From: a virus
IMG/VR virus record: IMGVR_UViG_3300044729_001198
Location: 1-64,000 of that record
Length of the DNA: 64,000 nt
Strand: one strand, 5' to 3'
Both the position numbers and the translations under genes were made by a program. The notes under the pieces are model-generated. The model was not told the origin of the DNA, did not search any database, and saw only the letters and a list, made by a program, of their open reading frames with translations. Shown here in pieces: positions 6,572-63,194 of this stretch. Numbering within the stretch: the stretch's first letter is position 1; the number at the start of each line of letters is the position of its first letter.

Positions 6572-9500
6572 TTATGGTGCGGATGCCGTATCCGGCATCA
6601 AATAATATCTTGAGTTGTTAGTATTTTTACCTTCAGCAAAAATCATACCCCAACGGGTATATCCTTGATATGCTGATTGTAAATCGAAGTAATACACACC
6701 GGTCCCAATCGTACCTGGAATAGCAGCGTCTTTAGCATATGTGTAATATTCATTAGCAGTTCCAATAGAATCGGGCGGAACGCCATCATACATACTTGCG
6801 GGTTTACCTCCTAAATTAGAAGCGGATGGGAAAATTATTAACAATCGTTGTGATGTGGAACTAAAATTAAAATACCCAAGTGTGGATATTCCTGTAGCTG
6901 ATGTATCTGACATAGTTGATAGCGAACTACTCTTATGTAAAGTACAAGCACCACCAATATAAGATGGTGTAAACGTACTACCTAATGACCCACTTTGTAA
7001 CATAGCTATTACCGACCCACTTGTAATTCCAATACCATCAGCATCAGTATCACCTAAAGATGCGATAGCCGTGGATTGGTTAGCAGCAGAACCACCACTC
7101 CAACCATATCCATATACAAGGCCTATTTGGTCTGATATAGTTATTGTATTTGAAGAATATGTTCTTGACTTACCATGCACATCCGTAATTGTAGCATCGT
7201 ATGTCAATGTTTGACCACTTGAAATTGTTGATACATTTTTTATAACATATGATGATGAATTTGCGTTTTGTGGAACTGCGTATAAGTCAGACCCATTTGT
7301 ACCACCAAGTGACATTAAGAATGGAGTATCAGTTTCCATGTCAGTTATACTTGCACTTACTAATCCGGTATTGGCCGATATAGATGCCGTTAGGTTAGTA
7401 GTAATTGGGGTGAATGATGCCGTTGGTACACTATTAGAAGCCACATTTATTGTTATACTACCACTACCAATGTTATTGTATTGGTCACGGAATGTTATAT
7501 TTGATGTAAATGTTTGACCTGATGTGTAAGAGCCACTAACATTTTGTGCTATTGATATAGCGCCAGTTGAGGTAACACCTACAAGAGCATTCGATGATGT
7601 AAATGATTGAACCGCAGCCAAATTGTATTGTGGTGAGTATGTAACTCCCAAATCACCTTGAGTACCACTTCTACCATTTGTACTTGTGTAAATCAAAGCA
7701 CCACTTCTTGCAGTTTCTATAACGTAGAACGTACCATTTGTTGTTAAAGTACCAACAGGAGCTTGAGCGATGGTTATTGAGAATGGGAATGAAGCAGAAC
7801 CACTTCCCACTTTACCAAAACTATCAGCAACGCTTCCACTAAATGTATAAGTTCCAGCGGGTACATTTGTATTAGCATAAATGTAATAGTTGTCACCACT
7901 TTGAAGATGACTAAATCCAGCTGAAGAAGATACTAATTGGAAACTTGAATGATTTATAGTATCACCAATACCAGGTTGTGGTTCTCCAAATGAAACAATG
8001 GCTAGATTTTGAGGTGACCTAGCCCCATTTGTATTTAAATAACTCGAATACGCAACCGTATTAGAAGCAATGATGGGTGCTAAATTTGGAGTAACTCTTA
8101 ATGTGTGAGTTCTATATTGTTTTGTGGTTTCAAACGAAGTTTCTGAAGCCGTTACTTGTACTTGAATTGTAGAGCCAGACGTGTATATAGAACCACTTAT
8201 ATGACTTGCTAGTTCAAGAGCAAGTGATGTAGAGCCGGTATATTGTGTAGTTCCGTTTGTAAATCTAACATACCCAGCCGGTGAACTATTGACTTTCCAC
8301 ATTTGTGAAACGGCTGACGAGTATGTAATACTACCAGCAGTATATCCATCGGTGTTTGTGGTTAAATCAGCACCAGATACTGCGGATTCTACTATGTAAT
8401 ACGTTTGTGTATCAGACCCAATAGTTGAACTAGCATCAGCATCAATTGGTATGGTGATTTCTGCGGTATCGGTAGTGGTATTGTAAGCATCACTCACGGT
8501 CACTAAATAAACATATCTATCAGCTACATCAGAGTTTAAGTAAACTCCATTTTTACGAGTTACACTTCCACCGGATGTACATTGGAATGGGTCAGCGTGT
8601 GGGTCATATAAAGACGTACCACCTAAAGACGAAGTAATGTTTGTACCAACACTATTAAGATATGCGGATATTAATGTGAAGTTACTAAATACTATAGTAT
8701 CACTCTCCGAATCAGTAGCAGTTATTGAACCAACAGTCGTACCATTTGATGAGTTTTCATTTATAGCAGTTAAAGTCTGATTATTTACTACAGGAACTAC
8801 GTTATCGACTACTGAAACTCTAAATGGTAAGTATGTAATTGAATCAGAATCATCACCATCTTGATAATGTTGGTCACTTGCCGTGAGTACAAAATTGTAA
8901 TGAGTTGTGGTCTCATAATCCAATGAAGCAGTTACTTGATTCAATTGAACATATGTAGCGCCAAGCGTCAATGAGAATTCGGATGGTACTGACCCCGTTC
9001 CTATTGTGATTGTATCACTTTCAGCATCGGTAAAATATACTCTAACTTTGTTATTAGCAGCTGTAGAGTTTTCGTTTAAAGATTGTGTATATGATGTTAC
9101 AATAGAGCCCCCAGTTGAAGTTTGTCTCCAAACAGGAGCCGTATTTGGATTAACACGGATATATACAGTTTGAGAACCAACTCCAAAAAATGTATCAACG
9201 GCTTCTACCAAAAATGGATGTGAACCAGAACCCGGAGTGGTATCCGTATTCATAGATGCGGTTGATTTTGTGTTCAATGTAATTTGACCGGCCGATGATA
9301 TCTTGAATAAGTCAGCGGTGTACAAACTTGAAGTTCTAAATGTAATTGATTGTGCTTCAGCATCGGTAGCAGATACAATACCGACCACCGAACCACTAAC
9401 CTCAAATTCTTGAATAGTAAATCCAGTAGTTGTTATTACAGGAACACTATTTGGAAAGAATACTTTTTCAATAAAATTTGCAAGAGAACCACTTGTAGCG

Positions 9501-11050: not shown

Positions 11051-12646
11051 TTAGATAGTTGAACCCAATGTGTTCAAACCATCAACAAATACTTTACCGT
11101 AGAACTCACCACGAATCATTTCCTTCGCGTAACGAGTCATTACACCCTTACGAGGTTGGAAGTTTTTCGGGTCGTACACCAAAGGAGTCATGATTAATGG
11201 AATGTATGGAGCGTATACAGCACCAGTTTCCAAGAATTGAGCACCTTTGAAACCTAACAAGATAACGTTTTCAGTCATGTAAGGGTTTTTGTACACTTGG
11301 TAGCGGTTAGCGAATGAACCTACTTGAGATACACCCATTGCGAACTGCATTTCAGCACCAGTACCACTAGCAGCGAATCCAGGGATAGATTCAAGGATAG
11401 TTGCAACGTCAGGAGATACTACCATAAAGTTAGCTCCACCTCTCATGGTTTTAGCATGGATTTGGTTAGAAACTCTCTGAAGTACAGTACCTAATGTAGC
11501 GAACCATGTACCTTGAATGTAAGCAGTGTAGTTAGCAGCTGATTGAGCAAAAGCTGAACCATTCCATTCGTAACCAACACGAGCTGACCAGTAACCTGTA
11601 GTCAATGCGTTAGTCATCAACATATCCAAGATTTCGAAATCGATTTCTTGAGAAACGTATTCTGACAACATTGAAGTTAATTCAGCCTCGGCGTCAATTG
11701 AATGGTAAGCGTTCAAATCTTGAGCAAATTCAGGAGTCCATTGTGCTTTCAACTTACGAGTCTTAGCAACGATAGGAACTGAACGAAGTTCAACGTTTAA
11801 TTCAGGAATACCCAAATCAGTTTCAGGGTTTGCAGCGAAACCTGAAGTGGTTTGTTCGAAGTCACCACGAGTGATATCGCTTGGTTGTTTGTGGTAAGCA
11901 ACTTGTACAGCGGTAGCATTTGTTACAGCACCATCAGCTACTACGAATTCAACATAAGTAGAACCATCAGTTGTAGTCAAGTTTTCGATTACGTTAACGT
12001 AAGCAGAAGCGGACAACAATTGGAATGCACGAACGCCTTCGAAGTCAGCATTAAGACCAGCCAAGTTAACTTTTACAACATCGTAAGAGGTTGGAGCACC
12101 ATAACGTGAGTCGAAGTTAATAGAAGCTGAAGTAGCGTTTGAAGCTGTAGCGAATACAGTAGCAAATTGGTCGTTGATAGTATAACCAAAACGACCACCA
12201 CCATAAAGACCACCAGTTGCTTGACCAGCAGTTTCGGTGATACCGAATACTGAATCAGCTTGTGAATCTTTACCTGAACCGGTTGTGAAACCAGGTTGAC
12301 CTGAACCATACTTGAAATCCAAGTAGAATACAAGACCAGATGGTAAGTTCATAGGTTGTACTGAAACGAATTCTTTAGCAGCGATTTCAGAGAAGATACG
12401 TCTTACTAAAGGAAGAGCTACACCAGCCCATTCTTCAGAGTTAGCAGCAGTACCAGTAGCAGATGCTTCAGATACTAATTGTTTTGCTTGGTTTTCCAAC
12501 AAAGTAGCCATACCACTTCTTTCGAAGTCAGACTTGATACCTTCTAAAAGACCGGTCTTAGCCCATTTAGCTACGATACCTTTGCTCTCTTCAGATAATC
12601 TTTTGTTGAAACCAGCAGATTCATTTAAAATGTTATTGATTTTCAT
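11051..12646 (-). CDS. 23: Major capsid protein (gp23-like)
   Basis: This 531-residue protein matches T4 gp23 in size and in its N-terminal hallmark MATLLENQAKQL (residues 46-57). It forms the hexamers of the head shell. The N-terminal scaffold-targeting segment probably ends at QLVSE60|ASAT, which fits the gp21 rule (hydrophobic-x-Glu, then a small residue) and sits close to the T4 gp23 cleavage position. The C-terminal half carries motifs common to gp23 homologues (TPEFAQDLNAYHSIDAEAEL; RGGANFMVVSPDVATIL). AAAGGAAAATTAAG precedes the start. It lies directly downstream of the scaffold gene, the same order as T4 genes 22-23. Confidence 0.97.
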   Translation of the reverse strand: MKINNILNESAGFNKRLSEESKGIVAKWAKTGLLEGIKSDFERSGMATLLENQAKQLVSEASATGTAANSEEWAGVALPLVRRIFSEIAAKEFVSVQPMNLPSGLVFYLDFKYGSGQPGFTTGSGKDSQADSVFGITETAGQATGGLYGGGRFGYTINDQFATVFATASNATSASINFDSRYGAPTSYDVVKVNLAGLNADFEGVRAFQLLSASAYVNVIENLTTTDGSTYVEFVVADGAVTNATAVQVAYHKQPSDITRGDFEQTTSGFAANPETDLGIPELNVELRSVPIVAKTRKLKAQWTPEFAQDLNAYHSIDAEAELTSMLSEYVSQEIDFEILDMLMTNALTTGYWSARVGYEWNGSAFAQSAANYTAYIQGTWFATLGTVLQRVSNQIHAKTMRGGANFMVVSPDVATILESIPGFAASGTGAEMQFAMGVSQVGSFANRYQVYKNPYMTENVILLGFKGAQFLETGAVYAPYIPLIMTPLVYDPKNFQPRKGVMTRYAKEMIRGEFYGKVFVDGLNTLGSTI

Positions 12647-14328: not shown

Positions 14329-15732
14329 TTAGGCCTTCTTTTCTTTTCTCTTCTTTTCAATATCAGCAACAAGTTTACTCAACTTGACGTATTCAGCTTT
14401 CAATGATGAGTCGATGTATCTATTCAATCCCCAGTGGAAAGAAGCTCTAAGCAACATATAGAATGGTAAGTCTTTGTAGTTACGACCATATGTAGATAAT
14501 CTCAACCAATTCATAAATGCTTCAGCCATTGGTTTTGATAAAGGAATACCTTCAACACGAGATGTCTGACCATTGATTACCGATTGAACCAATTTAGTTG
14601 CCATACCATGAGCACCCTCGTTTACTGATTTTTTAGACTTTATAAGTGAAGTCAATTTCATAGACTCATTAGCAAAGTCTTCAGCATTCTCTTTGTCTTC
14701 AGCATCTACATCAGTAACCTTAAACGTTTTATCACCTACTTGGAATGTGTCTTGACCTGCAGCAATGGCTTTAGCTCTTGCAGCACCGAACTCATTACCC
14801 TCTTCCATTTCTTCTTCGTTTACCGATTCGTTCATGTTAGAGTAAAAATACTTTCTCATATAGTCTAATGACTTTAGGATACTTTGTAATTCTCTTTTAC
14901 CCTTTGGTCCAAGTTCTTCATCTCTCAAATATGCATTTAAAACAGCATATGCGCCATTTACAAATTGATATGGGTTTTCAGCTTTTACAGTATACGAAGC
15001 CTCGTTTACTGATTCTAAATTCAAACTTCTTTGTGCGTTAGTCAAACCACTAATGATAGATTTTAATCCACCCTTAACACCTTCAGTATCTTTAGCTTGA
15101 ACTCTTTTATCCAAAATTTTAGTATTGGCTTTTAAGAAGTTGATGATTGCGTTTTGAACAGCGTTCCACTTGATTTCTTCTTCGTTTACTGATTCGTTAG
15201 TGAACTCTTCAGCATTCTTTTTGTCAGAATCATCTACATCAGTCACTTTGTAAGATTTACCATCAACTTCAAATGAATCTTCACCAGCAGCAATTGCTTT
15301 AGCTCTTGCAGCACCAAACTCATTACCTTCTTTGATTTCGTAGTATTTACCAAGAACTTCACCAATCTCATCGTAAGCAGATTCCATTCTTTGTTGTAAA
15401 GTAGAAACCTCTTTAATTGTATTTGAAAATACTTTGAATGACTCATTCATAGACTTCATGTGTCTCTGAACAGTTACTCTATCGAACCAATCGCCGGTTT
15501 CTTTTAAAGTGATGTTGTTAGCGTTTTCTACAATATTTTTAATAGAATCGTGAATCTCACCAAGATTACCTTTGTGTGAAATCATCTCACCTAATTGTTT
15601 GTATGCAGCAACGGCTTCAACGAATGCACGTTTTTCTTCTTTGGTCATTCCTTTTTCATCCTCTTCACCCACATTCATTCTGCGGTAATCAAGTTCTTGT
15701 GATTCTTTTAAAAGGTCTTTTAATTTCTTCAT
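14329..15732 (-). CDS. Multi-module head-associated protein, probable gp21 substrate
   Basis: The 467-residue protein looks like a string of small domains separated by acidic linkers. The N-terminus MKKLKDLLKESQELDYRRM resembles T4-type scaffold-targeting peptides. Candidate gp21 sites fall after IKE135, VNE184, VNE244, VNE306, MEE311 and VNE372. A module beginning EGNEFGAARAKAIAAG occurs twice (about 135-182 and 311-357). Residues 358-372 (MKLTSLIKSKKSVNE) resemble the start of a separate small protein, suggesting an old gene fusion. The segment DWFDRVTVQRHMKSMNESF (81-99) belongs to a module type I recall from marine T4-type phages. No catalytic residues are apparent. It follows the 274-residue gene of similar style in the prohead operon. 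Confidence 0.7.
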   Translation of the reverse strand: MKKLKDLLKESQELDYRRMNVGEEDEKGMTKEEKRAFVEAVAAYKQLGEMISHKGNLGEIHDSIKNIVENANNITLKETGDWFDRVTVQRHMKSMNESFKVFSNTIKEVSTLQQRMESAYDEIGEVLGKYYEIKEGNEFGAARAKAIAAGEDSFEVDGKSYKVTDVDDSDKKNAEEFTNESVNEEEIKWNAVQNAIINFLKANTKILDKRVQAKDTEGVKGGLKSIISGLTNAQRSLNLESVNEASYTVKAENPYQFVNGAYAVLNAYLRDEELGPKGKRELQSILKSLDYMRKYFYSNMNESVNEEEMEEGNEFGAARAKAIAAGQDTFQVGDKTFKVTDVDAEDKENAEDFANESMKLTSLIKSKKSVNEGAHGMATKLVQSVINGQTSRVEGIPLSKPMAEAFMNWLRLSTYGRNYKDLPFYMLLRASFHWGLNRYIDSSLKAEYVKLSKLVADIEKKRKEKKA

Positions 15733-15749: not shown

Positions 15750-16574
15750 TTATGATTTAGATTCAACAAGTTTTTCAATTTTTTGACCAAGTGGTCTACC
15801 AATTGTCATCGAAGTATAAAAAGCAATTGCGTCAGCAATAGCACCACCATCCCATTGTGCCATATTAGCAATTTTTGGACCAAGGTCGTATTCGTATATA
15901 TCAATGGTATCTTCTTTACCCATCGGGTCACCTTCGTATTCAGCTTTAGGGAATAAAGCAGGTACTTTCTTTGCGTCTGAATGGAAGTTTGCATCTCTTA
16001 ATGCGCCAATCAAAACGTGCATTACTGCAAACTGATGGTTAGGACCACCCGTTCTCAAATCACCGAGCTCTTTCATCAAAAGTTTATAAACTTTTTTGTT
16101 GAGCATACCATCTACTTCATTTATGGATTCAGAAATACCATCATAATCATGATAGTTTGATGATGCTTGTGAAATGTAGTTTTCAGCGTTAGTGATATGG
16201 TCTTGAATCCAAGCAGGAATGTCCTTTTCCATCTCACCCATTTTTTGTTTTAATTCAGTAGCGTATTTGATAATAGAGTCTAATGAATTTTGTGACATAG
16301 ATACTTCGTGGTCTTGTTCTTGGATGCTTTCATTTGTTCCAAATTTGGATACAATCATTTTAAACATTTTATTACCAGGATTACCAACAAGAGCTGACAC
16401 AAATGCCATTCTTTCGGGCATTTTACCATTTTTTACATACTTGTATAATGCAGATGCATCGATACCATTATCATCTATAAATTTTTGAACAGCATCACCA
16501 CGAGTTGCGGTAAAAGCGGCAATGCCCATGGCTTCTTTCGAAGCAGATTCAGTAATAAGTTTCTTTAAATTCAT
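15750..16574 (-). CDS. Head-associated multi-module protein
   Basis: I choose the start MNLKKLITESASKEAMG at 16574. GGAG lies 9 nt upstream, the N-terminus then matches the M-x-L-K-x-L-I-x-E-S pattern of its neighbours, and the overlap with gp21 disappears. An earlier in-frame ATG at 16619 exists. Candidate gp21 sites include NESIQE|QD and SESINE|VD. The middle module (MSQNSLDSIIKYATELKQKM, then WIQDHITNAENYISQ) is helical and of a type common in marine T4-like phages. The C-terminal 120 residues are a mixed domain ending KIEKLVESKS. The function is unknown; I infer a capsid-internal or prohead core role from position and motifs. Confidence 0.65.
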   Translation of the reverse strand: MNLKKLITESASKEAMGIAAFTATRGDAVQKFIDDNGIDASALYKYVKNGKMPERMAFVSALVGNPGNKMFKMIVSKFGTNESIQEQDHEVSMSQNSLDSIIKYATELKQKMGEMEKDIPAWIQDHITNAENYISQASSNYHDYDGISESINEVDGMLNKKVYKLLMKELGDLRTGGPNHQFAVMHVLIGALRDANFHSDAKKVPALFPKAEYEGDPMGKEDTIDIYEYDLGPKIANMAQWDGGAIADAIAFYTSMTIGRPLGQKIEKLVESKS

Positions 16575-16575
16575 T

Positions 16576-17214
16576 TTATTTAACTCCAAAATCACATTCG
16601 CAATATCCACCAACTTCACAAATGATATCTCTCATGATGGTATTCGCTTTAGTATAATTAGTTTGTTTTCTTTGAACACTTTCGTTTATAACACCCTCAT
16701 TTGTGGGTCTCAAGAAAGCACCTTGGGTTGATGGGTTTGATACAAAGTCCCAACAGATTAATTCGAAATCATTTTCAACTGCAACTGTACCATCTTCTTT
16801 GATTTGTTTTACCGAACCCATACCTCGTGATGAGATACCAACAGTACAACCGGCCTTGACCAATTCTTGTAAAATTTTACCAGCAGGTGTATTTAAAATC
16901 TCAACTTGACCCACTACATCATCACCATTCCACCAAACTTCACGGATAATGTGTGACGTATTCTTCAATTCAACAACTGAAGATTCAGGGTGGTCAAGTT
17001 CACCATATGCACGGTTCTCTCTGATTTCTCTACCCTTGTATTTTTCAATTTCTCTTTCAAGAATATCTTTTGGGTAAACTCTACCATTTTGATTTTTAGC
17101 ATTAGCTCTTTGAAGTACACCGCTGACAACGAATCTACCACTTTTATCGTATGATTCTTTTAACATTTGAGGTGTAATCTCAAATAAACTAACATCAATC
17201 AGTAATTGTTTCAT
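16576..17214 (-). CDS. 21: Prohead core protease (gp21-like)
   Basis: This is the T4 gp21-type serine protease, which cleaves scaffold and capsid proteins after [IL]-x-E during head maturation. Conserved features include the N-terminal RFVVSGVLQRANAKNQNGRV block, the catalytic-histidine region AYGELDHPESS and the serine region CTVGISSRGMGSV. The length of about 212 residues is normal. The start MKQLLIDVSLFEI at 17214 is preferred, since GGGAG lies 6 nt upstream and the ATG overlaps the TAA of the 47-residue gene (TAATG). Another ATG lies 12 nt earlier. Its likely substrates are its neighbours. Confidence 0.92.
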   Translation of the reverse strand: MKQLLIDVSLFEITPQMLKESYDKSGRFVVSGVLQRANAKNQNGRVYPKDILEREIEKYKGREIRENRAYGELDHPESSVVELKNTSHIIREVWWNGDDVVGQVEILNTPAGKILQELVKAGCTVGISSRGMGSVKQIKEDGTVAVENDFELICWDFVSNPSTQGAFLRPTNEGVINESVQRKQTNYTKANTIMRDIICEVGGYCECDFGVK

Positions 17215-17357
17215 TATTTCTCCCAAACTTGTCTTTTACGATATAAATCAAAAAATATTCTTGCAATTTCCCTGCGGATTATATAACGAACCTGCTCAAG
17301 GTCATCAACTTCAAGAGCTTCTTTCAATTTTGAATTTTTGTTACATCCACAAGACAT
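17214..17357 (-). CDS. Small Cys-containing head-cluster protein (47 aa)
   Basis: The frame from ATG 17357 to TAA 17214 encodes a protein starting MSCGCNKNSKLKEALEVDDL with a helical remainder (EQVRYIIRREIARIFFDLYRK). Its stop overlaps the gp21 start (TAATG), and its start lies 1 nt after the stop of the 167-residue gene, so it is fully embedded in the operon. It occupies the place of the small T4 core genes 67/68, but I see no sequence similarity. CxC near the start could bind metal. It is too short for most gene callers. Confidence 0.65.
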   Translation of the reverse strand: MSCGCNKNSKLKEALEVDDLEQVRYIIRREIARIFFDLYRKRQVWEK

Positions 17358-20672: not shown

Positions 20673-22247
20673 TTAAAGTATCCATGTCATGTCAAGGTCG
20701 TTACCACGACCATCCTTAACAACCCATGGGTTTTTACTACCAAGCCGTGAGTTGTAAGCTCCACCGTCACTTTTTCCAATATGTGTAAGCGCAGTTCGTG
20801 TTAAATCAATACCTTGTTGTCTTAATTTAAGAGCGGTATCTCTTACCCATAGTCCTGTGGAAAATGACATTACCAAGTCATCATTATAACCTTGTTGAGC
20901 TTCAGCCCGTGAACCATTCCAAATGAATACAAACAACTCATCAATCAATCTTTTAGAATGAATGATTGGAGCTTTCTCTCTCATGTATGTATCTAATTTA
21001 GAAATGACTAATGGTCGTGTTCTTGATGTCATCGAAAACCCAGGAACCATGTCTTCTTTTTTCTTTAAGTCCCATCCCTTTCGTAGATGAACATCTTCGT
21101 CAACGTACCCTACTTCACGATATGAATAATAAAGATTTTGATAATTTCGGTCAATAACTTCTTGTATAACAGCCCAACCAATGTTTGCGTTTTCAATCAC
21201 CAACATAGCATTGTTCCATTCAGCGGCAATAGAGGTTAGCATCGCTCCAAATTGTTTTGTTTCAATCTTACCTTTATATTCTGCAACTTGTTCTACTGTC
21301 TCCACATCTATAACATGGAATGCTGAGTAATCTTGACCATCTCCACGAGCAACGTCAGCTACAACCACATAGTCACGAGAATAGTTTGGATATTCCCAAA
21401 CCCAATAGTTACTATCGAATCCACGTTTTTCAACTGGATCTTTGATATAAGTTTCTTGATACCATGTTAGGATTGATGAATCAACTACAGTGTAACCTGA
21501 ACTGATAAAGTCACAATCACATTCTTGTGCTGCTCCTTTTTCACCAAGTAGTTTAGTTTGGTCATCTCTCCACTTTTGATTTCGTTCAGGGTGAACAGTC
21601 CAGTGAAGTTTAATTGGATTCCAACTATCACCAGCCTCACCTTTTAACCAAATTTTATGAAACCAATTACCAACACCATTTGGTGTTGAAAGTACAATAG
21701 CTTTACCACCTGTAGACAAAGTTGATTGAGCCGATGTCCAAATGTCTTCGATATTTTGAATAAATGCAGCCTCGTCAATGATTAACATTGATAATGCTTC
21801 AGAACGACCAGCGTCACCTGCAGCAGAGGTTGCTTTAATTTGAGAACCATTTCGTAATCGTAAGGAAAGTTTGTTGTCTTCGATAGTTTCACTCTTTAAC
21901 CAACTTGGTAAACTATCATGCATAAATCTAACCTTTGTTACAAGGTTTTTTGCTACTTCTTGTTTGGTGGCAATTACCAATATGTTTTTATCCTCATGAA
22001 ATAACATCATCCACAACGAATATCCTGCTGATAGGGTTGAGATACCCAACTGACGTGACTTTAAGATTACGTTGAACCGATTATCATTGAAATCAGTCAT
22101 CAAATCTTCTTGGAACGGGTACAAGTTGAATAAAATCTTACCTCGGTGTGGGTGTTGGATGTAACAATATTTTTTAAAGAAATATACGGGATCTTTCGCA
22201 CACTTAATGTACTCCTCCCGTATCATTTCCTTTAAAGTTTTTGCCAT
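20673..22247 (-). CDS. 17: Terminase large subunit (gp17-like)
   Basis: This 524-residue DNA-packaging motor and nuclease has a Walker A variant SRQLGIST (64-71), Walker B MLIIDEA (154-160) and the coupling motif LSTPNG (186-191). The C-terminal RNase H-like nuclease has its acidic strand VADVARGDGQDYSA (296-309), and later conserved residues around NDDLVMS. The lack of an intein or insertion and the normal length indicate an intact enzyme. It acts with the portal encoded just downstream. The small terminase subunit is not visible in the window. Confidence 0.95.
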   Translation of the reverse strand: MAKTLKEMIREEYIKCAKDPVYFFKKYCYIQHPHRGKILFNLYPFQEDLMTDFNDNRFNVILKSRQLGISTLSAGYSLWMMLFHEDKNILVIATKQEVAKNLVTKVRFMHDSLPSWLKSETIEDNKLSLRLRNGSQIKATSAAGDAGRSEALSMLIIDEAAFIQNIEDIWTSAQSTLSTGGKAIVLSTPNGVGNWFHKIWLKGEAGDSWNPIKLHWTVHPERNQKWRDDQTKLLGEKGAAQECDCDFISSGYTVVDSSILTWYQETYIKDPVEKRGFDSNYWVWEYPNYSRDYVVVADVARGDGQDYSAFHVIDVETVEQVAEYKGKIETKQFGAMLTSIAAEWNNAMLVIENANIGWAVIQEVIDRNYQNLYYSYREVGYVDEDVHLRKGWDLKKKEDMVPGFSMTSRTRPLVISKLDTYMREKAPIIHSKRLIDELFVFIWNGSRAEAQQGYNDDLVMSFSTGLWVRDTALKLRQQGIDLTRTALTHIGKSDGGAYNSRLGSKNPWVVKDGRGNDLDMTWIL

Positions 22248-24255: not shown

Positions 24256-26733
24256 TTACCATTTTTTACAAGACCAATAACGAGCTTTCCATCTTGGCCC
24301 AGGACTATCACAATTGTGTCTGGCTCTGAATGATGCTCTTGCTTCGGGATTGTCTTTACGGATTCTCATCGTACCACCCTTAGCATCACCACCTTGTCCA
24401 AAGTTTACTTTAACAACATTACCTTTGTCGTTCTTAACATATACTTTGAATTTCTTAACATCACCTTGCATGATTTTACCAAGCTTTACTTTACGACCTT
24501 GGTATTCAGCCTCACCTAATTGCTTTTTGTATTTTTTAATATCATCACGAACTTCTTCAAAGTCCGACCACATTCCGTTTTTGATAAAATATACGGCGCC
24601 TTTAAAATCTTTGAATCCCAAATATTTAACTAAATTCTTATCAGAGTATAATTGCTTTAGAACTTCTTTAACACCAGCAGACGCAAGATTCATTTCTTCT
24701 ATTTTTGATTCAAAAACAGGAACCTGAATACCAAATGATTTTAATTTGGCTTGTAATGATTGTTGCTCTTCTTGGTCACCAAATTTAATGTAAGACAACA
24801 CTTCTTTGAATGACTTGAATCCGAGTTTAGGTAACACCTCTTTATTATTAAAAATCGTAGTCAATAATTCTTTGACACCGGCCGATTTGAATTTCAATTC
24901 TCTTAACCCAGCTCGTTCTGATGTCATATATGATTCAAGGTACTCTTTAAAATCTTCAATCTCTTCGTAATTTTCAACATCATACTCATCAACCACTTCT
25001 TCCTCTTCTTCTTTTACAAAAGATTTAGCTTGTGGGTTTGAATATAATTTACCAATCTCAATTCCGTTTTGTTCCATGAATGATTTGATAGCATGGTATT
25101 CTTCTTTGATGATAGTTTTTAATACGTTGAGTTTTTTGTTCTCATCTAATTTTTCTTCTTCGGTTTCTTCATCAAGTTTTTTAACAGGATACATTTTTCC
25201 GTTGAATTCGAATTCAGTCAAACCTTCTTGACGAGCTTTGAACAAAGCGCCAGTAAAAGCATTACCTTCTACCATTTGCTTTTTATTCATCATACTTTCC
25301 ATGATACCAACAGCAATATCACCAACCAAAAAGTCAGGTTTAGTTGCGTATTTTTTGTTCACAATAGCAACTCTATTACCACTCTTATCTTGAACTACAT
25401 AAATCGGCATTGGTGAAGTAGCAAAGATGTATCTCATGCCGGTTTTCTTTAATTCAGTACCAACACTCATAAATGAAGAAGCAGCTTCAACAGCCGACTT
25501 GATTTTTTCCATATCATTTGATGATATACCTTCATTTACATTATCTTGATAAAGAACTTGAATATCTTTAATGTCACCTGTGAATGGTCCGTTCAATGTA
25601 TTAATGGTTACTTTGTTACCACTAATTTTCATTACCATGCCGGTTTTGTTTTTTGATTTGAAATGTACAAAATCACCAATCTCAAAATCACCAACGTTTG
25701 CTTCAGTTAATGAACTATCACTAACAATACCTTCATAATTAGCCATGGTTAATACATCATTTTCTTTTGACATTTTAATCACATTCTGACTAACGTTGTG
25801 TAAGTCCATATCACTTTTTGCATCTTCACGAGAATATTCTAATAAACGAATAAAAAGCGGAACATCCATTGAGATGGTGTCTATACTATCATTAGCTTCT
25901 GAAATTCCTTGTTGTTTGTTTTTCATATCAGCAAAGGCTTGTGCTTCTTCTTTGGTAGCAAACCCCTTTACTCTAACCTCACCTTCCCAAACAGCCCACG
26001 GCTCATTTGGATTCTTACAAGGTCTTACTACATATTTGTCATTTGGGTCACCGGTATGTGATTCATTTATCGACTCTTCAATACCTTTTTTAGAACGGAT
26101 TTTGTATTTCTTGTAAAGGTAATCCATTGACTTGATGTTTTGTTTTAACTGCCATGCGTGGTCATCATTTACTCTTTTTAAACGAACCATTAATTGAATG
26201 TCAGAATCAGACGCTACTTCAGCAAATTTAGGACCAATTACCCAAGATTGTTTACCTCTATAAAGGTCAACATTAATATCAGCCTCGTTTACGGATTCTG
26301 ATTTAGTTTTCCAAGTACCACCTTTTTCTTTGTACCACTTTGATGCAAATGCGTTAGCGTATGCTGATGGATATACATCGTATTTAGCCTTTGCAGCAGC
26401 AACGGCTCTATCCCAAAGAGCAGGGTTGTTGGGTTCGTTTTCTTCGTTAATCGATTCCTTTACACAATTTGGAACTTCTTTACCATTTTTCATTTTCATT
26501 CCTATTTGTTTGTATCCATCCCAACACGGGCTGTCTTCCTTGATAGATTCAAATCTAAACTTACCTTTAGGCGCTTCTTGTTTAAAATATTTTAAAGCAA
26601 ACTCTGATTTAAGGTTTGGAGCATATTGGCCGATTTCTTTTCCGTTCTTTAAAACGATATGAGTTAACATACCACCCCAACGGAAAACTTTTGCAAGTTC
26701 ATAATCACCAATTTTAGCAACAACTTTAGCCAT
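24256..26733 (-). CDS. Multi-module head polyprotein candidate (825 aa)
   Basis: This protein reads as at least nine small domains in series. Candidate gp21-type junctions fall after INE97, VNE150, INE224, ISE279, LTE344, VNE401, MVE489 and LGE741, with 53-88 residues between the first seven. Modules include CWDGYKQIGMKMKNGKEVPN (70-89), a helical one around DVYPSAYANAFASKWYKEKG (119-138), one around VPLFIRLLEYSREDAKSDMD (291-310) and an SH3-like piece (346-398). An EGNAF module (489-520) is related to those in the 467-residue protein. Two tandem SAGVKE...LGFK[SD]FK units follow (617-650, 685-718), and a terminal basic domain ends RARHNCDSPGPRWKARYWSC. Several modules resemble ones I recall next to prohead genes of marine T4-type phages. 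I see no catalytic motif. Confidence 0.7.
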   Translation of the reverse strand: MAKVVAKIGDYELAKVFRWGGMLTHIVLKNGKEIGQYAPNLKSEFALKYFKQEAPKGKFRFESIKEDSPCWDGYKQIGMKMKNGKEVPNCVKESINEENEPNNPALWDRAVAAAKAKYDVYPSAYANAFASKWYKEKGGTWKTKSESVNEADINVDLYRGKQSWVIGPKFAEVASDSDIQLMVRLKRVNDDHAWQLKQNIKSMDYLYKKYKIRSKKGIEESINESHTGDPNDKYVVRPCKNPNEPWAVWEGEVRVKGFATKEEAQAFADMKNKQQGISEANDSIDTISMDVPLFIRLLEYSREDAKSDMDLHNVSQNVIKMSKENDVLTMANYEGIVSDSSLTEANVGDFEIGDFVHFKSKNKTGMVMKISGNKVTINTLNGPFTGDIKDIQVLYQDNVNEGISSNDMEKIKSAVEAASSFMSVGTELKKTGMRYIFATSPMPIYVVQDKSGNRVAIVNKKYATKPDFLVGDIAVGIMESMMNKKQMVEGNAFTGALFKARQEGLTEFEFNGKMYPVKKLDEETEEEKLDENKKLNVLKTIIKEEYHAIKSFMEQNGIEIGKLYSNPQAKSFVKEEEEEVVDEYDVENYEEIEDFKEYLESYMTSERAGLRELKFKSAGVKELLTTIFNNKEVLPKLGFKSFKEVLSYIKFGDQEEQQSLQAKLKSFGIQVPVFESKIEEMNLASAGVKEVLKQLYSDKNLVKYLGFKDFKGAVYFIKNGMWSDFEEVRDDIKKYKKQLGEAEYQGRKVKLGKIMQGDVKKFKVYVKNDKGNVVKVNFGQGGDAKGGTMRIRKDNPEARASFRARHNCDSPGPRWKARYWSCKKW

Positions 26734-26741
26734 TTTAAACC

Positions 26742-27212
26742 TTATGAAATATATACGTTTAACTCGTATGCGCTACGCATTCCATACACTTGGATTGCCA
26801 AAGCTTTACGTTGTGGTTTTCCACCTTTTGTAAGAGAAATTATAAATCTATTGGTTTTACCTTCAGAGGGTTTTTTTGGACCTAATCCAATTTTTGTTGA
26901 AGTTTCTTCTTCATCAAAATCATAACCAGCTTTTTTAGCATATTCTAATGCGGTTTGGATTGCTGAAGTATATGTTTTATGGTAAACTTGATATGCCGCT
27001 TCTTTGATTACGGATTCATTTCTCTTATTAGAAGTGTACATACCTTTTAACCATGCAATAGCATCTTTGGTTAAGTCAAATTGTGGAAATTCTTTTTTGA
27101 ATTCTTTTATGAATTCTTGAAACGTTTCCGCTTCTTGAACCATAATGTCAATTTCGCTCATCGATGACTCATTGACTTTTTTAGATTCGGTTATAAGTGA
27201 TTTTAATCTCAT
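26742..27212 (-). CDS. Head-associated module protein (156 aa)
   Basis: The N-terminus MRLKSLITESKKVNESSMSE repeats the targeting-peptide style of the other head proteins, and RNESVIKE|AAYQVYH offers a candidate cleavage site. The C-terminal module (about 76-156: TYTSAIQTALEYAKKAGYDF, then PSEGKTNRFIISLTKGGKPQ) is a compact alpha/beta domain also known as a free-standing unit in marine T4-type phages. GAGGGAGAC precedes the start. It ends 8 bp before the 825-residue gene, so both are one transcription unit. Confidence 0.6.
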   Translation of the reverse strand: MRLKSLITESKKVNESSMSEIDIMVQEAETFQEFIKEFKKEFPQFDLTKDAIAWLKGMYTSNKRNESVIKEAAYQVYHKTYTSAIQTALEYAKKAGYDFDEEETSTKIGLGPKKPSEGKTNRFIISLTKGGKPQRKALAIQVYGMRSAYELNVYIS

Positions 27213-27910: not shown

Positions 27911-30910
27911 TTATTCGTAGAAAAGACCAAGTATTTGATTTAACGGAGCGAATGTTCCCGTTAACTTATAAGTTTGACCCTTGTATACAAATACAATACC
28001 CTCGTTAGGTACAATTTTGTCTTTACCGCCAATAGCAGCAAGTCTTTCCAATTCCAATCTCAATTTAGAAATCTTTTTAGGGTCACCTAACTTTTGAACG
28101 TCTTTGATTGTTTGGTCAAGTCGGTCTTTCATATTACGAACTGCCGTGTCTGGATTTACAGTCAATACTGATGACATAAATGATAATACTTCAGCACCAA
28201 CCCCCAAGAATATATCTTCAAATGGTCTAATATTATCTTTTGCAATTTTAGCGTGGTCATTTTTGTCCACACCTTGAGCCCAAGCTAATACTTTAGGGTC
28301 GGTGATGTTTTTGTTGTCTAATCTAAACGACTTATCATAGAACGCCCATCTCTTAACAAGACCCATCTTGGTTTTATTGTCAATTGTAGATGGTGATTTC
28401 GTATCAACGTAATTTTCCCACCATCTTTGATGGTATTCAGCAACACCATCTGTGTCTTTTAAATTAAATTGCTTTTGAAGTTTACCTAACTGACCATCAA
28501 ACTTTGATTTCAATGAAGATAACTTTTGTGACTTTGGTAATTGTTGAATTGGTGGACCTTGAATAGTATATTGTGATTGTACATCAGCATTTACTTGTTT
28601 AATCATACCGGCAAGAATCTTTGCATCACTTTGTTCAGCTCCAATAGCAACACCATCCTCATTATATTCCGTTGTATTGTGGAATACCAATAACGGCTGA
28701 CCGTATGGGATTACGTTTACGGATGTTGGCCAGATTACTTCAAGGTTCATAAATTTTGCACCTTGTTTGAATATCTTGTCACGTTGAGCTTTTGATAAAC
28801 TTTTGATAGCTGACGTTAGGTCTTTCATTGCAAAGTTGTAAGCATCCGTGAGACCACCACGACCTTGGAACTTACTCGCAACACCACTAATATCAAGTGC
28901 TTTTTCACCACGATTGGCAAGATGACCTTTATTTCTAGCAGCAATTAATCCACCTTTATCATCTCTCCACGAAATGGCAAGTGCTTGTCCATCGGTCTTT
29001 TCTCTGGCAAGTTCTAACTCACCATTTAGAGCACCATGGATGATTTGTTTTAGGTCACCAAAGGTAAGATTCATTTCAGTATCAAATGGATGAGCCATGT
29101 GTCCATAAGCACCACCTTCCATCAACATACCCTCATCGAGTTTATCAATAATTCTAAACTTCAGTAAGGGCTTTCCGTTGATTGTAATATCTCCCTTTTC
29201 ATTTTTACCTATAGACTTAACTACTATTCTTTTGTTTTTAAACTTACCACCAAGTACAGTATCACCAACACTAATTGGTACGTTTATATCTTCATCCAAT
29301 AAAGTTTCTTTTAATACGTTTTCGTTTGTATTGATAATATAATCTAATGTAGCATCTTTACCTTTTAAGTCTAGCCAATATTTTGATTTTATAAATTGAG
29401 AATATAAAGTTTTCATATTTGAAACGGCTTCAACTTCCCAAGGTAGTTTCATATATTCAGCAGGATTGGATTTCATTAACTTACCATAATCTTTTGCAGT
29501 TATATATTCCTTACCTTTCCACAATATTGCAGTGTAATCTTTATTTGGTAATAATTCTTTTTTACAAACCTGTTTGACATGAGTTAATTCATGTATCATT
29601 GTTTGAATTATTCTCTGATATGATTGATTAGGATTAAAGTTTAAATAAAATTTATTACCATCTACTGATGTGGAACTCAAAGATATATCACCTATCAATC
29701 CAACTTTTTCTTTTTTCTTTACTATAATTTTCGCGTTAAAACCATATTTGTCCATCATAAAAGCAACAACAGATTTAACCATTAAAGTTTCATGTTGTTT
29801 CAATTTCATTGATGTGCCAAATAAGTCTTCATCTAAAAATTTCATGAACGAATTTCCCAAAGAATAAGCTGTGGTATGGATATTTTCTGATAGCGGTAAG
29901 TGGCCCATCATATACTCTATGATTTCATATCCAAGATTAATGGCGTGTTCTTTTTTTAAGTCTTGAACATCTAACTCCTTTCTACCTTGTTTAGCGGTCG
30001 TGAAGTCATCACTTACAGGTGGAATTTCCAAATCAGTATTATTACGAATATTTCGTTTGGATGAGTATTGGTAATAATCAGATGACCCCTTTGCATCTGG
30101 TGAGACAATCACATCAGCAACCGGAAAATGCATTTGAACATAACCACCATTCACAAACCACACATCATCTTTTTGACCAGGATTCTTCGTTCCAAGTTTA
30201 CGAGTTTTTCCCGGTAATACAAACATAGTATCAGGTTCACCAGCATCAGCGCCATATTCACTACCTTCGAGTATTGAGTTTACATTATATCTTTTGAAGA
30301 ACTCTTCCATTACTGATTCTACTTTAATAAGTCGAGTAGTAATCAGATTATAAATTTTTGGGTCGAACTTTGGATATGCTTTTTGGAATCCAGCTTTTCT
30401 TTGAGATTCGTCTGAAGCTGATAACCAATCACGAACATCAGTACCACTTATAGCATTTGGTTGTTTTGGAGATACATAAACATAACCATGTTCTTTATAT
30501 CCAAATTCAGGTTTACCATCATACTTTTTAAAGTATTTACCACCCAAACGAGCTTCATCCTTTTCACCAACTACAGTAATAAAAGCCGTTGAAGTTTCAT
30601 CGAATTTAGAAATAACTTCAGTAGGAGCATATGGGTTTTTTACTTGTACAATTTGTGAAGATGGTATCTTAAACATCTTCATCATTATGTCTCTTTTTTC
30701 TTTGAAGTTAAATGGGTGTCTTGGCCCACCTTGTTGGTTTGAAGTTCCGATAAATACGTTTTCTTTACCAAACTTTTTTACAAGATGTGAATATGTAGCG
30801 TAATGACCATTATGAAATGGTTGGAATCTGCCAGCATATACAACAACTTGTCTTTTGATATTGCTTTCAACAATAACCGACTTGACCCATTCTTTAATTA
30901 AATTTCCCAT
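27911..30910 (-). CDS. Three-domain protein: NMNAT-like, HExxH peptidase, ligase-like
   Basis: Domain 1 (about 20-210) is a cytidylyltransferase-fold enzyme of the NadR/NMNAT type, with GRFQPFHNGH (27-36) and ISGTDVRDW (154-162). Domain 2 (about 216-595) carries a zinc-peptidase motif, HELTH (440-444), with a possible third ligand in WEVEA (491-495). Domain 3 (about 600-999) resembles the covalent nucleotidyltransferase fold of ATP-dependent ligases: EKTDG (637-641, candidate lysine K638), NLEVIW (722-727), LLVFHN (740-745), EGIVFVYK (970-977) and YKLTGTF (981-987). The junctions SILE215|GSEYG and MLME598|GGAYG fit gp21 cleavage, so three separate products are likely. The start has no Shine-Dalgarno sequence. 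Activities are unproven. Confidence 0.75.
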   Translation of the reverse strand: MGNLIKEWVKSVIVESNIKRQVVVYAGRFQPFHNGHYATYSHLVKKFGKENVFIGTSNQQGGPRHPFNFKEKRDIMMKMFKIPSSQIVQVKNPYAPTEVISKFDETSTAFITVVGEKDEARLGGKYFKKYDGKPEFGYKEHGYVYVSPKQPNAISGTDVRDWLSASDESQRKAGFQKAYPKFDPKIYNLITTRLIKVESVMEEFFKRYNVNSILEGSEYGADAGEPDTMFVLPGKTRKLGTKNPGQKDDVWFVNGGYVQMHFPVADVIVSPDAKGSSDYYQYSSKRNIRNNTDLEIPPVSDDFTTAKQGRKELDVQDLKKEHAINLGYEIIEYMMGHLPLSENIHTTAYSLGNSFMKFLDEDLFGTSMKLKQHETLMVKSVVAFMMDKYGFNAKIIVKKKEKVGLIGDISLSSTSVDGNKFYLNFNPNQSYQRIIQTMIHELTHVKQVCKKELLPNKDYTAILWKGKEYITAKDYGKLMKSNPAEYMKLPWEVEAVSNMKTLYSQFIKSKYWLDLKGKDATLDYIINTNENVLKETLLDEDINVPISVGDTVLGGKFKNKRIVVKSIGKNEKGDITINGKPLLKFRIIDKLDEGMLMEGGAYGHMAHPFDTEMNLTFGDLKQIIHGALNGELELAREKTDGQALAISWRDDKGGLIAARNKGHLANRGEKALDISGVASKFQGRGGLTDAYNFAMKDLTSAIKSLSKAQRDKIFKQGAKFMNLEVIWPTSVNVIPYGQPLLVFHNTTEYNEDGVAIGAEQSDAKILAGMIKQVNADVQSQYTIQGPPIQQLPKSQKLSSLKSKFDGQLGKLQKQFNLKDTDGVAEYHQRWWENYVDTKSPSTIDNKTKMGLVKRWAFYDKSFRLDNKNITDPKVLAWAQGVDKNDHAKIAKDNIRPFEDIFLGVGAEVLSFMSSVLTVNPDTAVRNMKDRLDQTIKDVQKLGDPKKISKLRLELERLAAIGGKDKIVPNEGIVFVYKGQTYKLTGTFAPLNQILGLFYE

Positions 30911-59537: not shown

Positions 59538-60467
59538 TTAAGCATTGCCCATATTATGCCCCTTTGGGTGTTTACCAAATTTGGAAATGTAATCTAACAC
59601 AGTCAGTTCTTTCATCTTGGCTTCAATGTCAATATCAAGGTCATGACCATATGTATTGATTTCCGAATAGATGAAGTCAGAGTGTGCTTGTGGTTTAGCA
59701 GTAGGGTCTTCTAACGTCTTTGATTCTGAATAGTGGACAAGTGGTTTGACATCACCCCAAGTAGACATAGCAAGTTCAAGGGCTTCTTGTTCGGTCAGTC
59801 CGCCAGTATTGAATGTATGGTGGTGGTAGTCGAACACAATAGGGATACCAGTACGTTCGTGGATATACATAAGGTCTTTAACTGAATACATACTACCTTT
59901 GTCATCATTCTCAACAGTCAGTCGTGTTTGAACTGATTCTGGTAACAATTCAAAATTCTTACAAAATCTATCCATAGCAGATTGCTTGTCACCATACACA
60001 CCATTACAATGGATGTTAATAAGGTTGTACGGACTACGTTCCAATCCCATAAGGTCAAAGTGTTCACCATGAATAGATAAGTCTTTGATGGTGTTCTTAA
60101 CCACGTTCTCGTTAGGTGATACTAACACATTGAATGGACCAGGATGAGACGTGATACGTTGATTGTACATATTAGCGAGACTACCGGCACCACGAAGTAC
60201 ATTTGAAAACTTGTCAAAGTCTGGCATATCTGATAACTGAAATTCAGTAGCCCATGGTACAAGGTCCGATGTCATACGAAATAGTCCGAACCCATTTTGG
60301 TGATTCCACTTGATAATCTCTACAAGGTCACGAGCGTTTTGGAGTGCTAGATTGGATGACCTACTAATACCTTCCTTGAGAAATGTCTTCTTGACCATAG
60401 AACGATTTGTGGTAATCTTTTGTTTACCAAGGGTCATGTTAATACAGCAATATCCTAATTGTGTCAT
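59538..60467 (-). CDS. uvsE: UV-damage endonuclease (UvsE/UVDE)
   Basis: The 309-residue TIM-barrel enzyme nicks DNA 5' to UV photoproducts. Metal-binding and active-site blocks match the family: MTQLGYCCINMTL at the start, FGLFRMTSDLVPW, SHPGPFNVL, NIHCNGVYGDKQSAMDRF, LTVENDDKGSMYS (with the catalytic glutamate) and PIVFDYHHHTFN. A host-type promoter lies just upstream, inside the downstream arm of a terminator. The enzyme would serve a phage in sunlit water, which fits an aquatic origin. Confidence 0.95.
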   Translation of the reverse strand: MTQLGYCCINMTLGKQKITTNRSMVKKTFLKEGISRSSNLALQNARDLVEIIKWNHQNGFGLFRMTSDLVPWATEFQLSDMPDFDKFSNVLRGAGSLANMYNQRITSHPGPFNVLVSPNENVVKNTIKDLSIHGEHFDLMGLERSPYNLINIHCNGVYGDKQSAMDRFCKNFELLPESVQTRLTVENDDKGSMYSVKDLMYIHERTGIPIVFDYHHHTFNTGGLTEQEALELAMSTWGDVKPLVHYSESKTLEDPTAKPQAHSDFIYSEINTYGHDLDIDIEAKMKELTVLDYISKFGKHPKGHNMGNA

Positions 60468-60532: not shown

Positions 60533-61657
60533 TTAAAGTTTTTCAAATTTAGGTTTTAACGCCTTCCAAATTATCTTATCATAATCCTTACCATCCCACA
60601 TAGCAAACATGATTGATTTTGCAATTGGATGATGGTCTTTGATATGTTCGGCAAATTGTTTTTTAGTTGGTTCTGGGTCAACATCACCATATTTACCAAA
60701 CCTAAAGTAATCGTAGGTTTTACCTAATTGATTCCAGTATTGGTAGTACCCATATTTAAGAGTTGAAACATAAAGCTTTATCTTTGTATAAAACTCATCA
60801 GGAACATCTTTAAGAATGTCATCTATATTACCACCACTTGATACTACTTCCCAAATTGAGGTTGTAGACAAATTGGTCATTATTTTATGTAAACGAACAT
60901 ATTCTTCAAATTTGATTTTCATTCTAAAATTACCTGGGTGGAATCTTAAAACAAAACCCTCTTTGTTAATTTCATTCTTTTCCTTCAATGACTTATAAAG
61001 TTCATCAGAGAAATTAAAGTGTTGTTCAGTTTTAACAATGTCTGATTTTTTAATTCCATTTCCAGCAAAGATAGAACAAGCAGTTGTCCAATGAAGTTCG
61101 ATTTCGTCTGTCGGTTTCCAACCTGTAAATCCTTCGTTTAAAACCACCGATAGAAAAACTACCGTTTCTTTACCATAATCTACTACAATTCGGTTTTCAG
61201 GATAAATGATTTCTACAAGGTAAGCATATTCCCTCATCCAAACATTATCAAAGACCGGATAGTTTCTTTTAAGAATTTCCATACCTCTGATTGCTTGGTC
61301 TGAAGTAAATGAACCACGAGTTGCCATAACCCACTCACCTTCGTAGTTAAATAGGATACCCAACGAACCGTCCATTTTTTCTTGGACATAGACATAATCC
61401 CCTTTAGTAGGAATTTGACTTTCACTCCACTTACCACCCACTAACTCTTCGTAATTAAAGAATTTTTTAAATGGACGTACTATTACTTTACCAGAATCCG
61501 TGTTGGTTATAAGACCTCGACATTGAATGGTTACATCATCCCATAGACTCTCATATTGAACCTTTTCAGTATAGTTCCAAATAGTAAGTGGTAACGTGGG
61601 ATGTGTCTGACTATACAACAACCCATCCGATTCATATTTTTTAAGTACGTCTAACAT
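60533..61657 (-). CDS. rnlA: RNA ligase, Rnl1 type
   Basis: The 374-residue enzyme matches the T4 Rnl1 family. The nucleotidylation lysine is K94 in QEKMDGSLGI, and TQCRGLIT-like and RPFKKFFNYEE blocks precede it. ATRGSFTSDQA follows, then motif IV KEGFVLRF and motif V MKIKFEEYVRL. It seals 3'-OH and 5'-phosphate RNA ends with ATP. In T4 this repairs tRNA cut by host defence. It overlaps the kinase gene by 7 bp, so both are translated together. Confidence 0.93.
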   Translation of the reverse strand: MLDVLKKYESDGLLYSQTHPTLPLTIWNYTEKVQYESLWDDVTIQCRGLITNTDSGKVIVRPFKKFFNYEELVGGKWSESQIPTKGDYVYVQEKMDGSLGILFNYEGEWVMATRGSFTSDQAIRGMEILKRNYPVFDNVWMREYAYLVEIIYPENRIVVDYGKETVVFLSVVLNEGFTGWKPTDEIELHWTTACSIFAGNGIKKSDIVKTEQHFNFSDELYKSLKEKNEINKEGFVLRFHPGNFRMKIKFEEYVRLHKIMTNLSTTSIWEVVSSGGNIDDILKDVPDEFYTKIKLYVSTLKYGYYQYWNQLGKTYDYFRFGKYGDVDPEPTKKQFAEHIKDHHPIAKSIMFAMWDGKDYDKIIWKALKPKFEKL

Positions 61658-62067
61658 AACTTCAATTCAAATCGATTTTTCATTTGTTCTAACTTATCGT
61701 CAGGCACACCATGTACGTTTACACCACCATGTCTATTTTCAACTACTAATGAGTAAACTCTATATCCATATTGTTTAGCCAATTCAAAGTATGTTTGCAT
61801 TTCCCATTCTTGGGTAAATGTATTTGATACTACAATTTTTCGATAGAATTGGTCATTAACCAAAGAATCTTTCATATAAGTTTCAACTGTATTTCTACAA
61901 AACTCATGTGCATCTTTTAATTTAGAACCATCAAAGTTGTAGTTACCTTCTTTATCATAAAAATACTTATCAGCTTCACATATTAAGAAATCACTTCCTA
62001 CTATTGAATTTGCTAATGTTGATTTACCACTGCCGGGCAATCCTCTTAATAAAAATAACTCTTTCAT
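61651..62067 (-). CDS. P-loop polynucleotide-kinase-like protein
   Basis: The 138-residue protein has Walker A LRGLPGSGKST (7-17), then ICEADKYFYDKEGNYNFDGS and a lid region with QEWEMQTYFELAKQYGYRVY. It resembles the kinase half of polynucleotide kinases and NEDD4BP2-type P-loop kinases. It would phosphorylate RNA 5'-OH ends and so prepare substrates for the ligase just downstream. It overlaps the phosphoesterase gene by 4 bp (ATGA). There is no phosphatase domain in this protein, unlike T4 Pnkp. Confidence 0.85.
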   Translation of the reverse strand: MKELFLLRGLPGSGKSTLANSIVGSDFLICEADKYFYDKEGNYNFDGSKLKDAHEFCRNTVETYMKDSLVNDQFYRKIVVSNTFTQEWEMQTYFELAKQYGYRVYSLVVENRHGGVNVHGVPDDKLEQMKNRFELKLC

Positions 62068-62777: not shown

Positions 62778-63128
62778 TTACTTTATCTTAACACGAACGG
62801 ATTCTTTTTTAGAACTTTTAACTTTGGGGATTCTAACAATCAAAATACCATTCTTTAATTCAGCCGTAGTTGATTCGGTATCAAAGCTTGAATTAATCTT
62901 GTACTTACGAGAAAAATGTCTAACTGAATTTTCAGCGTTCATAACCAAGACTCCCTCTTCAATGTTAATTGATACTTCGTCTTTTTCAAAACCGGGAATT
63001 TCAAATTCCATTTTTAATTCTGAATCAGTAACTTCCATGTGGTCATTTCTGATATCATAGTTTGTAGCAGCTGTTGACCACAAACTAAAATCTTTGTCGT
63101 CTAATAGATGTTTTAATAACGATGTCAT
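62778..63128 (-). CDS. hsp20: Small heat-shock protein (Hsp20/alpha-crystallin)
   Basis: The alpha-crystallin domain is complete: DSELKMEFEIPGFEKDEVSI, then GVLVMNAEN and the C-terminal AELKNGILIVRIPKVK with the I-x-I-type anchor motif. Hsp20 genes are common in T4-type marine phages and probably stabilise virion assembly or phage proteins. I choose the start MTSLLKHLLDD at 63128, because AAAGGAG lies 8 nt upstream; an earlier in-frame ATG at 63155 has none. Confidence 0.92.
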   Translation of the reverse strand: MTSLLKHLLDDKDFSLWSTAATNYDIRNDHMEVTDSELKMEFEIPGFEKDEVSINIEEGVLVMNAENSVRHFSRKYKINSSFDTESTTAELKNGILIVRIPKVKSSKKESVRVKIK

Positions 63129-63194
63129 AAATTTCTCCTTTTTTTGATATACCATTTACCAATGTCATACCAATCTTAATTTCATGACATATTG

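Follow-up and report, generated by a model that had tools for sequence, protein, structure and literature searches.

The 999-aa product of one gene in a T4-like virus is probably a capsid cargo polyprotein, processed by a gp21-type prohead protease and carrying enzymes that would be ejected with the DNA. On the sequence evidence, capsid targeting and gp21 processing appear likely, and the ejection of active enzyme cargo into the host reasonably likely. The pattern and conservation of the cleavage-type sites, the exchange of modules, the stand-alone leader-bearing forms of two modules, the gp21 gene, and the domain assignments were computed, and we infer targeting, cleavage, packaging, and ejection of the polyprotein. 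Capsid-internal proteins let a phage act on its host before any phage gene expression, and, to our knowledge, few have been described other than those of T4 and the giant phages.

The gene belongs to the late region of a T4-like virus whose record spans 186.6 kb; the first 64,000 nucleotides of that record make up the window analyzed here. The gene starts with ATG, stays open for 999 codons, and is flanked by large tail fiber-like genes and the terminase large subunit gene (20673-22247). Genes for a gp21-type S77 protease and gp23 are found in the same genome and on the same strand. No T4-type late promoter was seen upstream of the polyprotein gene, and almost none before the other head genes either. 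The features are as follows (a slash marks a predicted cut or, in the split intein of L069 described below, an intein boundary):

27911..30910, minus strand: whole polyprotein gene, 999 aa
30866..30910, minus strand: leader, residues 1-15, MGNLIKEWVKSVIVE/S, ending in the gp21-type site VIVE15/S; kept in 62/64 relatives
30266..30865, minus strand: NMNAT/cytidylyltransferase-like module, residues 16-215, with GRFQPFHNGH at 27-36 and ISGTDVR at 154-160; PF01467, PHROG 395
29828..30265, minus strand: second module, residues 216-361, from SILE215/GSEYG to FLDE361/D; domain shared by 28 relatives
29306..29827, minus strand: predicted metallopeptidase, residues 362-535, from FLDE361/D to VLKE535/T, with HELTH at 440-444 and PWEVEA at 490-495; motifs, stand-alone genes
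29132..29290, minus strand: small mobile module, residues 541-593, from LLDE540/D to KLDE593/G; site at a constant offset, 44/46 copies
27914..29116, minus strand: predicted RNA-ligase-like nucleotidyltransferase, residues 599-999, from MLME598/GGAYGH; motifs, fold ranking
16576..17226, minus strand: gp21-type prohead protease (Peptidase_S77), presumed processing enzyme; PF03420, E 8e-35 at 16702-17145
11051..12646, minus strand: gp23 major capsid protein, with leader MKINNILNE/S and candidate site VSE60/AS; PF07068, E 1.5e-78

Leader and gp21-type junctions

The polyprotein begins with a T4-like capsid-targeting leader, overlooked in an earlier note on this DNA, that ends at VIVE15/S and resembles the leaders of T4 gp24 (MAKINELLRE/S) and Alt (MELITE/L). 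In T4, proteins are guided into the prohead by capsid-targeting sequences, leaders of 10 to 19 residues that gp21 cuts off (PMC9026906). Relatives of the polyprotein were gathered from IMG/VR, 80 loci first and further loci later; a leader-type site falls within the first 21 residues in 62 of the 64 full-length relatives, compared with 14.7% of random windows, the pattern being missing from L076 and L160. The same type of leader starts gp23, a gp22-like protein (MKSDLLKE/A), and several neighboring multi-site proteins. Such a leader would carry the entire polyprotein into the core of the prohead, where gp21 would remove the leader after VIVE15 and would also cut between modules at the hydrophobic-x-Glu sites 215, 361, 535/540, and 593/598, leaving separate enzymes in the head to be ejected together with the DNA.

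A raw excess of gp21-like sites was considered as evidence and rejected, since the reading frame holds four [LIVM]xE[AGS] matches and shuffled versions of it would be expected to hold 2.6 (P = 0.26); the case therefore rests on the conservation and position of the sites. At the ligase junction, before GGAYGH, P1 is Glu and P3 is Leu or Ile in all 106 nonredundant viral relatives, while P2 is free, with ten different residues, and the background rate of [LIVMF]xE in polyprotein relatives is 0.016 per position. Glu at P1, Leu or Ile at P3, and a free P2 make up the pattern that a gp21-type protease reads. The exceptions are two distant copies on MAG contigs (L386 and L387), which read LLLM/GGAYGH, without the Glu. 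In 44 of 46 copies of the small module, [LIVMF]xE is found at a constant distance before the module, the sequence farther upstream taking 33 different forms; P1 at this junction is Glu in all 46. This module is located at differing places in different relatives, and a site of the cleavage type clearly travels with it. Site counts over relatives are not independent, the relatives being akin. P1′ at the polyprotein sites is often Asp, Glu, or Asn rather than Ala, Gly, or Ser, so that not every site need be cut.

The earlier note had described three enzyme-like domains joined at the gp21-type sites SILE215/GSEYG and MLME598/GGAYG. Both sites are present, and processing into separate enzyme parts is supported by predicted sites that are conserved by position. 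The number of parts needs revision: five modules are predicted (NMNAT-like, the 216-361 module, metallopeptidase, the small module, and the RNA-ligase-like nucleotidyltransferase), and three had been counted because VIVE15/S and the internal sites FLDE361/D, VLKE535/T, LLDE540/D, and KLDE593/G were overlooked.

Module exchange and stand-alone forms

Domain content is variable among the relatives, and the modules are gained and lost exactly at gp21-type sites. An insertion series illustrates this: L015 has neither middle module (FLDKSLLVE/GGAYGH), L009 has the small module alone (FLDE/DITIP...KLDE/GMLME/GGAYGH), and the window has both (FLDE361/DLFG...VLKE535/TLLDE540/DINVP...KLDE593/GMLME598/GGAYGH). 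Likewise, at one and the same GLxE/ point, the metallopeptidase is missing in L013 and L019 and present in L004 and L006. The 216-361 domain, common to 28 relatives, at times occurs elsewhere in the polyprotein.

Two modules also occur as genes of their own. The metallopeptidase is a separate gene, 78 to 91% identical, in other phages, with leaders such as MIRLKTILNE/DLFGTSMK, MIKLKDILSE/D, and VIKLKSILSE/D, and the point that forms a junction in the polyprotein is the end of the gene's own leader there. Two distant records encode the ligase-like module on its own, with a leader and with the LE/GG junction kept (MKFLKSYEEFLNE/NLILE/GGSYGH in L087, MKSLIQYISE...QPILE/GGAGGH in L389). The most economical interpretation is that capsid cargoes once encoded separately became fused, their own leaders being turned into internal cleavage sites. 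The variable middle of L073 and eight other relatives holds DUF5661 in some cases and a GNAT domain in one.

The enzyme-like modules

All of the catalytic motifs that the earlier note had read as intact were located, namely, GRFQPFHNGH (27-36), ISGTDV (154-159), HELTH (440-444), EKTDG (637-641, with K638), EGIV (970-973), and YKLTG (981-985). The claim of an intact NMNAT-like domain agrees with a PF01467 match above the cutoff (E 2.4e-6; 28.2 bits versus 21) and with PHROG 395 (E 1.5e-14); PF01467 is found in 31 of 33 relatives, and the HxGH and SxTxxR motifs are invariant or nearly so in the 33. The score lies far below that of the curated nicotinamide-nucleotide adenylyltransferase equivalog (best NCBIfam match, 36.1 bits versus 397 required), and the substrate is therefore unproven. 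A NAPRTase (NadV) gene is absent from the 186.6-kb record, so that NMN or NaMN for the NMNAT-like enzyme would have to come from the host.

The predicted metallopeptidase has the gluzincin hallmark of HExxH with a downstream Glu ligand; HExxHxxQ (with H440, E441, and H444) and PWExEA are invariant over 27 sequences, consistent with the peptidase claim in the earlier note. It scores below the Pfam cutoffs (DUF6782, 16.3 of 27 bits). In structure prediction for single domains, which that note had proposed, the fold closest to the metallopeptidase model (AF2; pLDDT 84.8 with a metallopeptidase-only alignment) is the minigluzincin abylysin, at E 0.088 and probability 0.84, and the nearest folds to the ligase-like model (AF2; pLDDT 85.8, pTM 0.82) are RNA ligases, the best at E 0.025.

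In the C-terminal module, the motifs EKTDG, AARNK (657-661), MNLEV (721-725), EGIV, and YKLTG are arranged such that nucleotidyltransferase motifs I, III, IV, and V occur in order, with K638-T-D-G, E724, E970-G, and K982 invariant, and EKxDG, NxE, EGIV, and KLTG are invariant in 50 relatives. The nine best PDB folds are all RNA ligases (T4 Rnl1, Rnl2, and fungal Trl1), with low TM values and none passing E 0.001. Among viral models, 14 relatives pass E 0.001 and are followed by many RNA ligases. Profile proof that the module is an RNA ligase was sought and not obtained: the Pfam RNA ligase families PF09511 and PF09414 gave no match in it, and comparison with the T4 Rnl2 profile was not significant (hhalign probability below 1%). 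For this reason, we use the name RNA-ligase-like and stop short of classifying the module as an RNA ligase, a membership suggested by the motifs and a weak fold ranking. Of the earlier ligase-like claim, the nucleotidyltransferase with invariant motifs and RNA ligases as best fold neighbors stands, whereas a sequence or profile match is lacking.

The module might instead be another nucleotidyltransferase, serving protein AMPylation, RNA capping, or DNA nick sealing, a possibility that we lean away from but that would be compatible with the capsid cargo polyprotein. The missing Pfam and profile matches favor it, as do an insertion of ~200 residues before motif IV and the presence of a true Rnl1-type ligase already encoded at 60533-61657; the RNA ligases that fill the nine best PDB places and recur in the next tier of viral models argue against it, and so does the CCA-adding domain with which the module shares a polyprotein in relatives. 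T4 RNA ligases 1 and 2 resemble the module in the order and kind of their nucleotidyltransferase motifs and in the fold ranking, but they have no significant sequence or profile similarity to the module and lack its head-protease junction and its large, helical insertion before motif IV.

In one relative (L069:5986-9490), a split intein sits between the lysine and the threonine of the catalytic EK/TDG. The N-intein ends the first reading frame, an endonuclease-like reading frame follows (7573-8313), and the C-intein ends in ...GILVHN/TDG; intein halves with a free-standing endonuclease-like gene form a fractured-gene arrangement. Inteins favor such catalytic places in active enzymes, and the position fits an active site that would be under strong constraint.

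The ligase-like family occurs in hundreds of viral contigs, mostly aquatic (IMG/VR); outside viruses, only five bacterial or archaeal genome contigs carry it, all MAGs or uncultured assemblies. In T4-like cyanophages, a DUF6267 gene (KWDGAP...PEGYV...KFVNR) usually adjoins the cytidylyltransferase gene (L296:2784-4540; L378-L384), and DUF6267, with its nucleotidyltransferase-like motifs, may be an unfused counterpart of the ligase-like module. The best local alignment between the module and the cyanophage DUF6267 profile covers motifs IV and V in register and is not significant. The gene for a fold match, A0A0M6VVW4, was not found within the S-PM2 stretch examined.

Predicted packaging, alternatives, and possible purpose

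The polyprotein bears the sequence marks of the T4 internal-protein/Alt class. Like IPI-III and Alt, it has a short leader ending in hydrophobic-x-Glu, a gp21 gene in the same genome, a late-region location, and presumed ejection with the DNA; unlike these single proteins, which are cut at their ends, it comprises up to five predicted modules with internal sites and cassette exchange. Virion data exist for distant homologues. Mass spectrometry of purified virions detected the S-CREM2 cytidylyltransferase gp154 (PMC10665884), and an NMNAT is also present in S-SCSM1 virions (PMC9602691); the authors of both studies noted that these virion NMNATs may be carry-over from CsCl purification (PMC10665884, PMC9602691). 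The S-CREM1 virion list does not include that phage's NMNAT. Both S-CREM2 gp154 and S-SCSM1 ORF91 share the NMNAT-like domain with the polyprotein, and gp154 starts with a leader of the same kind (MKNFSSFLTE/ADEK), but gp154 is a 286-aa protein of distant sequence without the other modules. Because the homologues are distant, they support packaging here and do not prove it. Beside the S-CREM2 cytidylyltransferase gene lies that of another virion protein, gp156 (L295:10013-10726), with a nucleotidyltransferase domain (PF01909, E 3e-4).

Another relative is the “cytidylyltransferase like protein” of the cultured Microcystis phage Mel-JY01 (PP395634), encoded beside the terminase region, which has NMNAT-like and ligase-like modules, a leader (HIFSE/D), and a junction (IIAE/GGLGGH); it differs in being 639 aa long, in lacking the metallopeptidase and the small module, and in having 40% identity in the ligase-like module. 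The polyvalent proteins of phages and plasmids are likewise multidomain delivered proteins with variable domain order and often a zincin, delivery being presumed for the polyprotein; their processing has been proposed to proceed via the metallopeptidase domain, whereas the polyprotein junctions fit a prohead protease, and the domain sets differ (PMC5512222).

Two other readings of the whole chain have to be weighed. The modules could be packaged and cut yet serve as core or scaffold in head assembly, with enzyme folds that are no longer enzymes. In T4, gp21 likewise cuts core proteins (PMC9026906), and several neighboring multi-site proteins show no recognizable enzyme domain; against this, the catalytic residues do not vary even among relatives with as little as 37 to 40% identity, the modules that replace one another are enzymes, and the L069 intein is inserted exactly at the catalytic EK/TDG, which makes a purely structural role unlikely. 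Similarly improbable is an ordinary, unpackaged cytoplasmic fusion enzyme made during infection, in which the leader and the sites arose by coincidence or have some other role. The NMNAT genes of many large phages have been taken as metabolic genes (PMC7824862), and the site count is not above chance, but the conserved leader and junctions with free P2, the stand-alone module genes that bear leaders, and the distant homologues found in virions speak against this reading.

For the cargo polyprotein, the purpose of the payload is less certain. It may be an NAD/RNA-repair kit that would be at work before any phage gene is expressed: the NMNAT-like enzyme would make or regenerate NAD; the ligase-like enzyme, joined in some relatives by a CCA-adding/poly(A)-polymerase domain, would mend broken RNA, for example tRNA; and payload or host proteins would be processed by the metallopeptidase. 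We regard an NAD/RNA-repair purpose as plausible but somewhat short of probable. In seven relatives, this CCA-adding/poly(A)-polymerase domain (PF01743) lies between the NMNAT-like and ligase-like modules (E 4.8e-31, 2.9e-30, and 3.7e-29 in the first three scanned), and the catalytic VGGxVRD is found in 7 of 107. The CCA-adding domain combined with the ligase-like module points to RNA-end repair, perhaps of tRNA, and would favor RNA repair at least as much as NAD. A separate CCA-adding enzyme is absent from the 186.6-kb record. The window also contains an RNA end-repair cassette of adjacent genes (60533-62714, minus strand) for an Rnl1-type RNA ligase (PF09511, E 3e-22), an AAA_33 PNK-like kinase, and a metallophosphoesterase.

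NAD-supply and RNA-repair genes directed against defense are a known feature of large phages (PMC7824862); a tie between the polyprotein and any given defense is one that we infer. A fuller version, more tentative still, has T4-like phages of aquatic habitats assembling and exchanging a preloaded kit for NAD and tRNA repair (NMNAT-like, CCA-adding/poly(A) polymerase, RNA-ligase-like, and metallopeptidase) as a string of capsid cargoes joined at gp21 sites, with leaders becoming internal sites on fusion; the kit would be active at time zero against tRNA-cutting or NAD-destroying defenses. More speculative again, the ligase-like enzyme might use NAD, and the constantly linked NMNAT might recycle its NMN. 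The novel points are that enzyme modules are strung together at gp21-type sites and exchanged both as cassettes and in the form of leader-bearing genes of their own, that NMNAT-like, CCA-adding, and ligase-like modules occur in combination, and that the ligase-like nucleotidyltransferases form an unannotated family. If the reading is true, a leader plus hydrophobic-x-Glu junctions would give a sequence rule for recognizing the proteins that hundreds of uncultured T4-like phages inject, and RNA repair and NAD supply would be delivered ready-made; the cultured relative Mel-JY01 makes it testable.

Other proteins of the head region were noted in passing. The 825-aa product of 24256-26733 (minus strand) holds 12 LxE[AGS] sites versus 3.1 expected, carries several small phage domains (PHROG 9737, 4359, and 7595), and is probably another heavily cut head polyprotein. 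Capsid-targeting-like leaders are also found on the products of 14329-15732 (8 gp21-like sites versus 2.3 expected), 15750-16619, and 26742-27212 (all minus strand). Outside the window, a 252-aa gene at 104668-105426 of the record (minus strand), with leader MKLKNLILE/G and an HEIEH motif, encodes a candidate second capsid-targeted metallopeptidase, unrelated by profile to that of the polyprotein. The window further encodes a UvdE-type UV endonuclease (59538-60467; E 7e-60) and an Hsp20 family protein (62778-63155), both on the minus strand.
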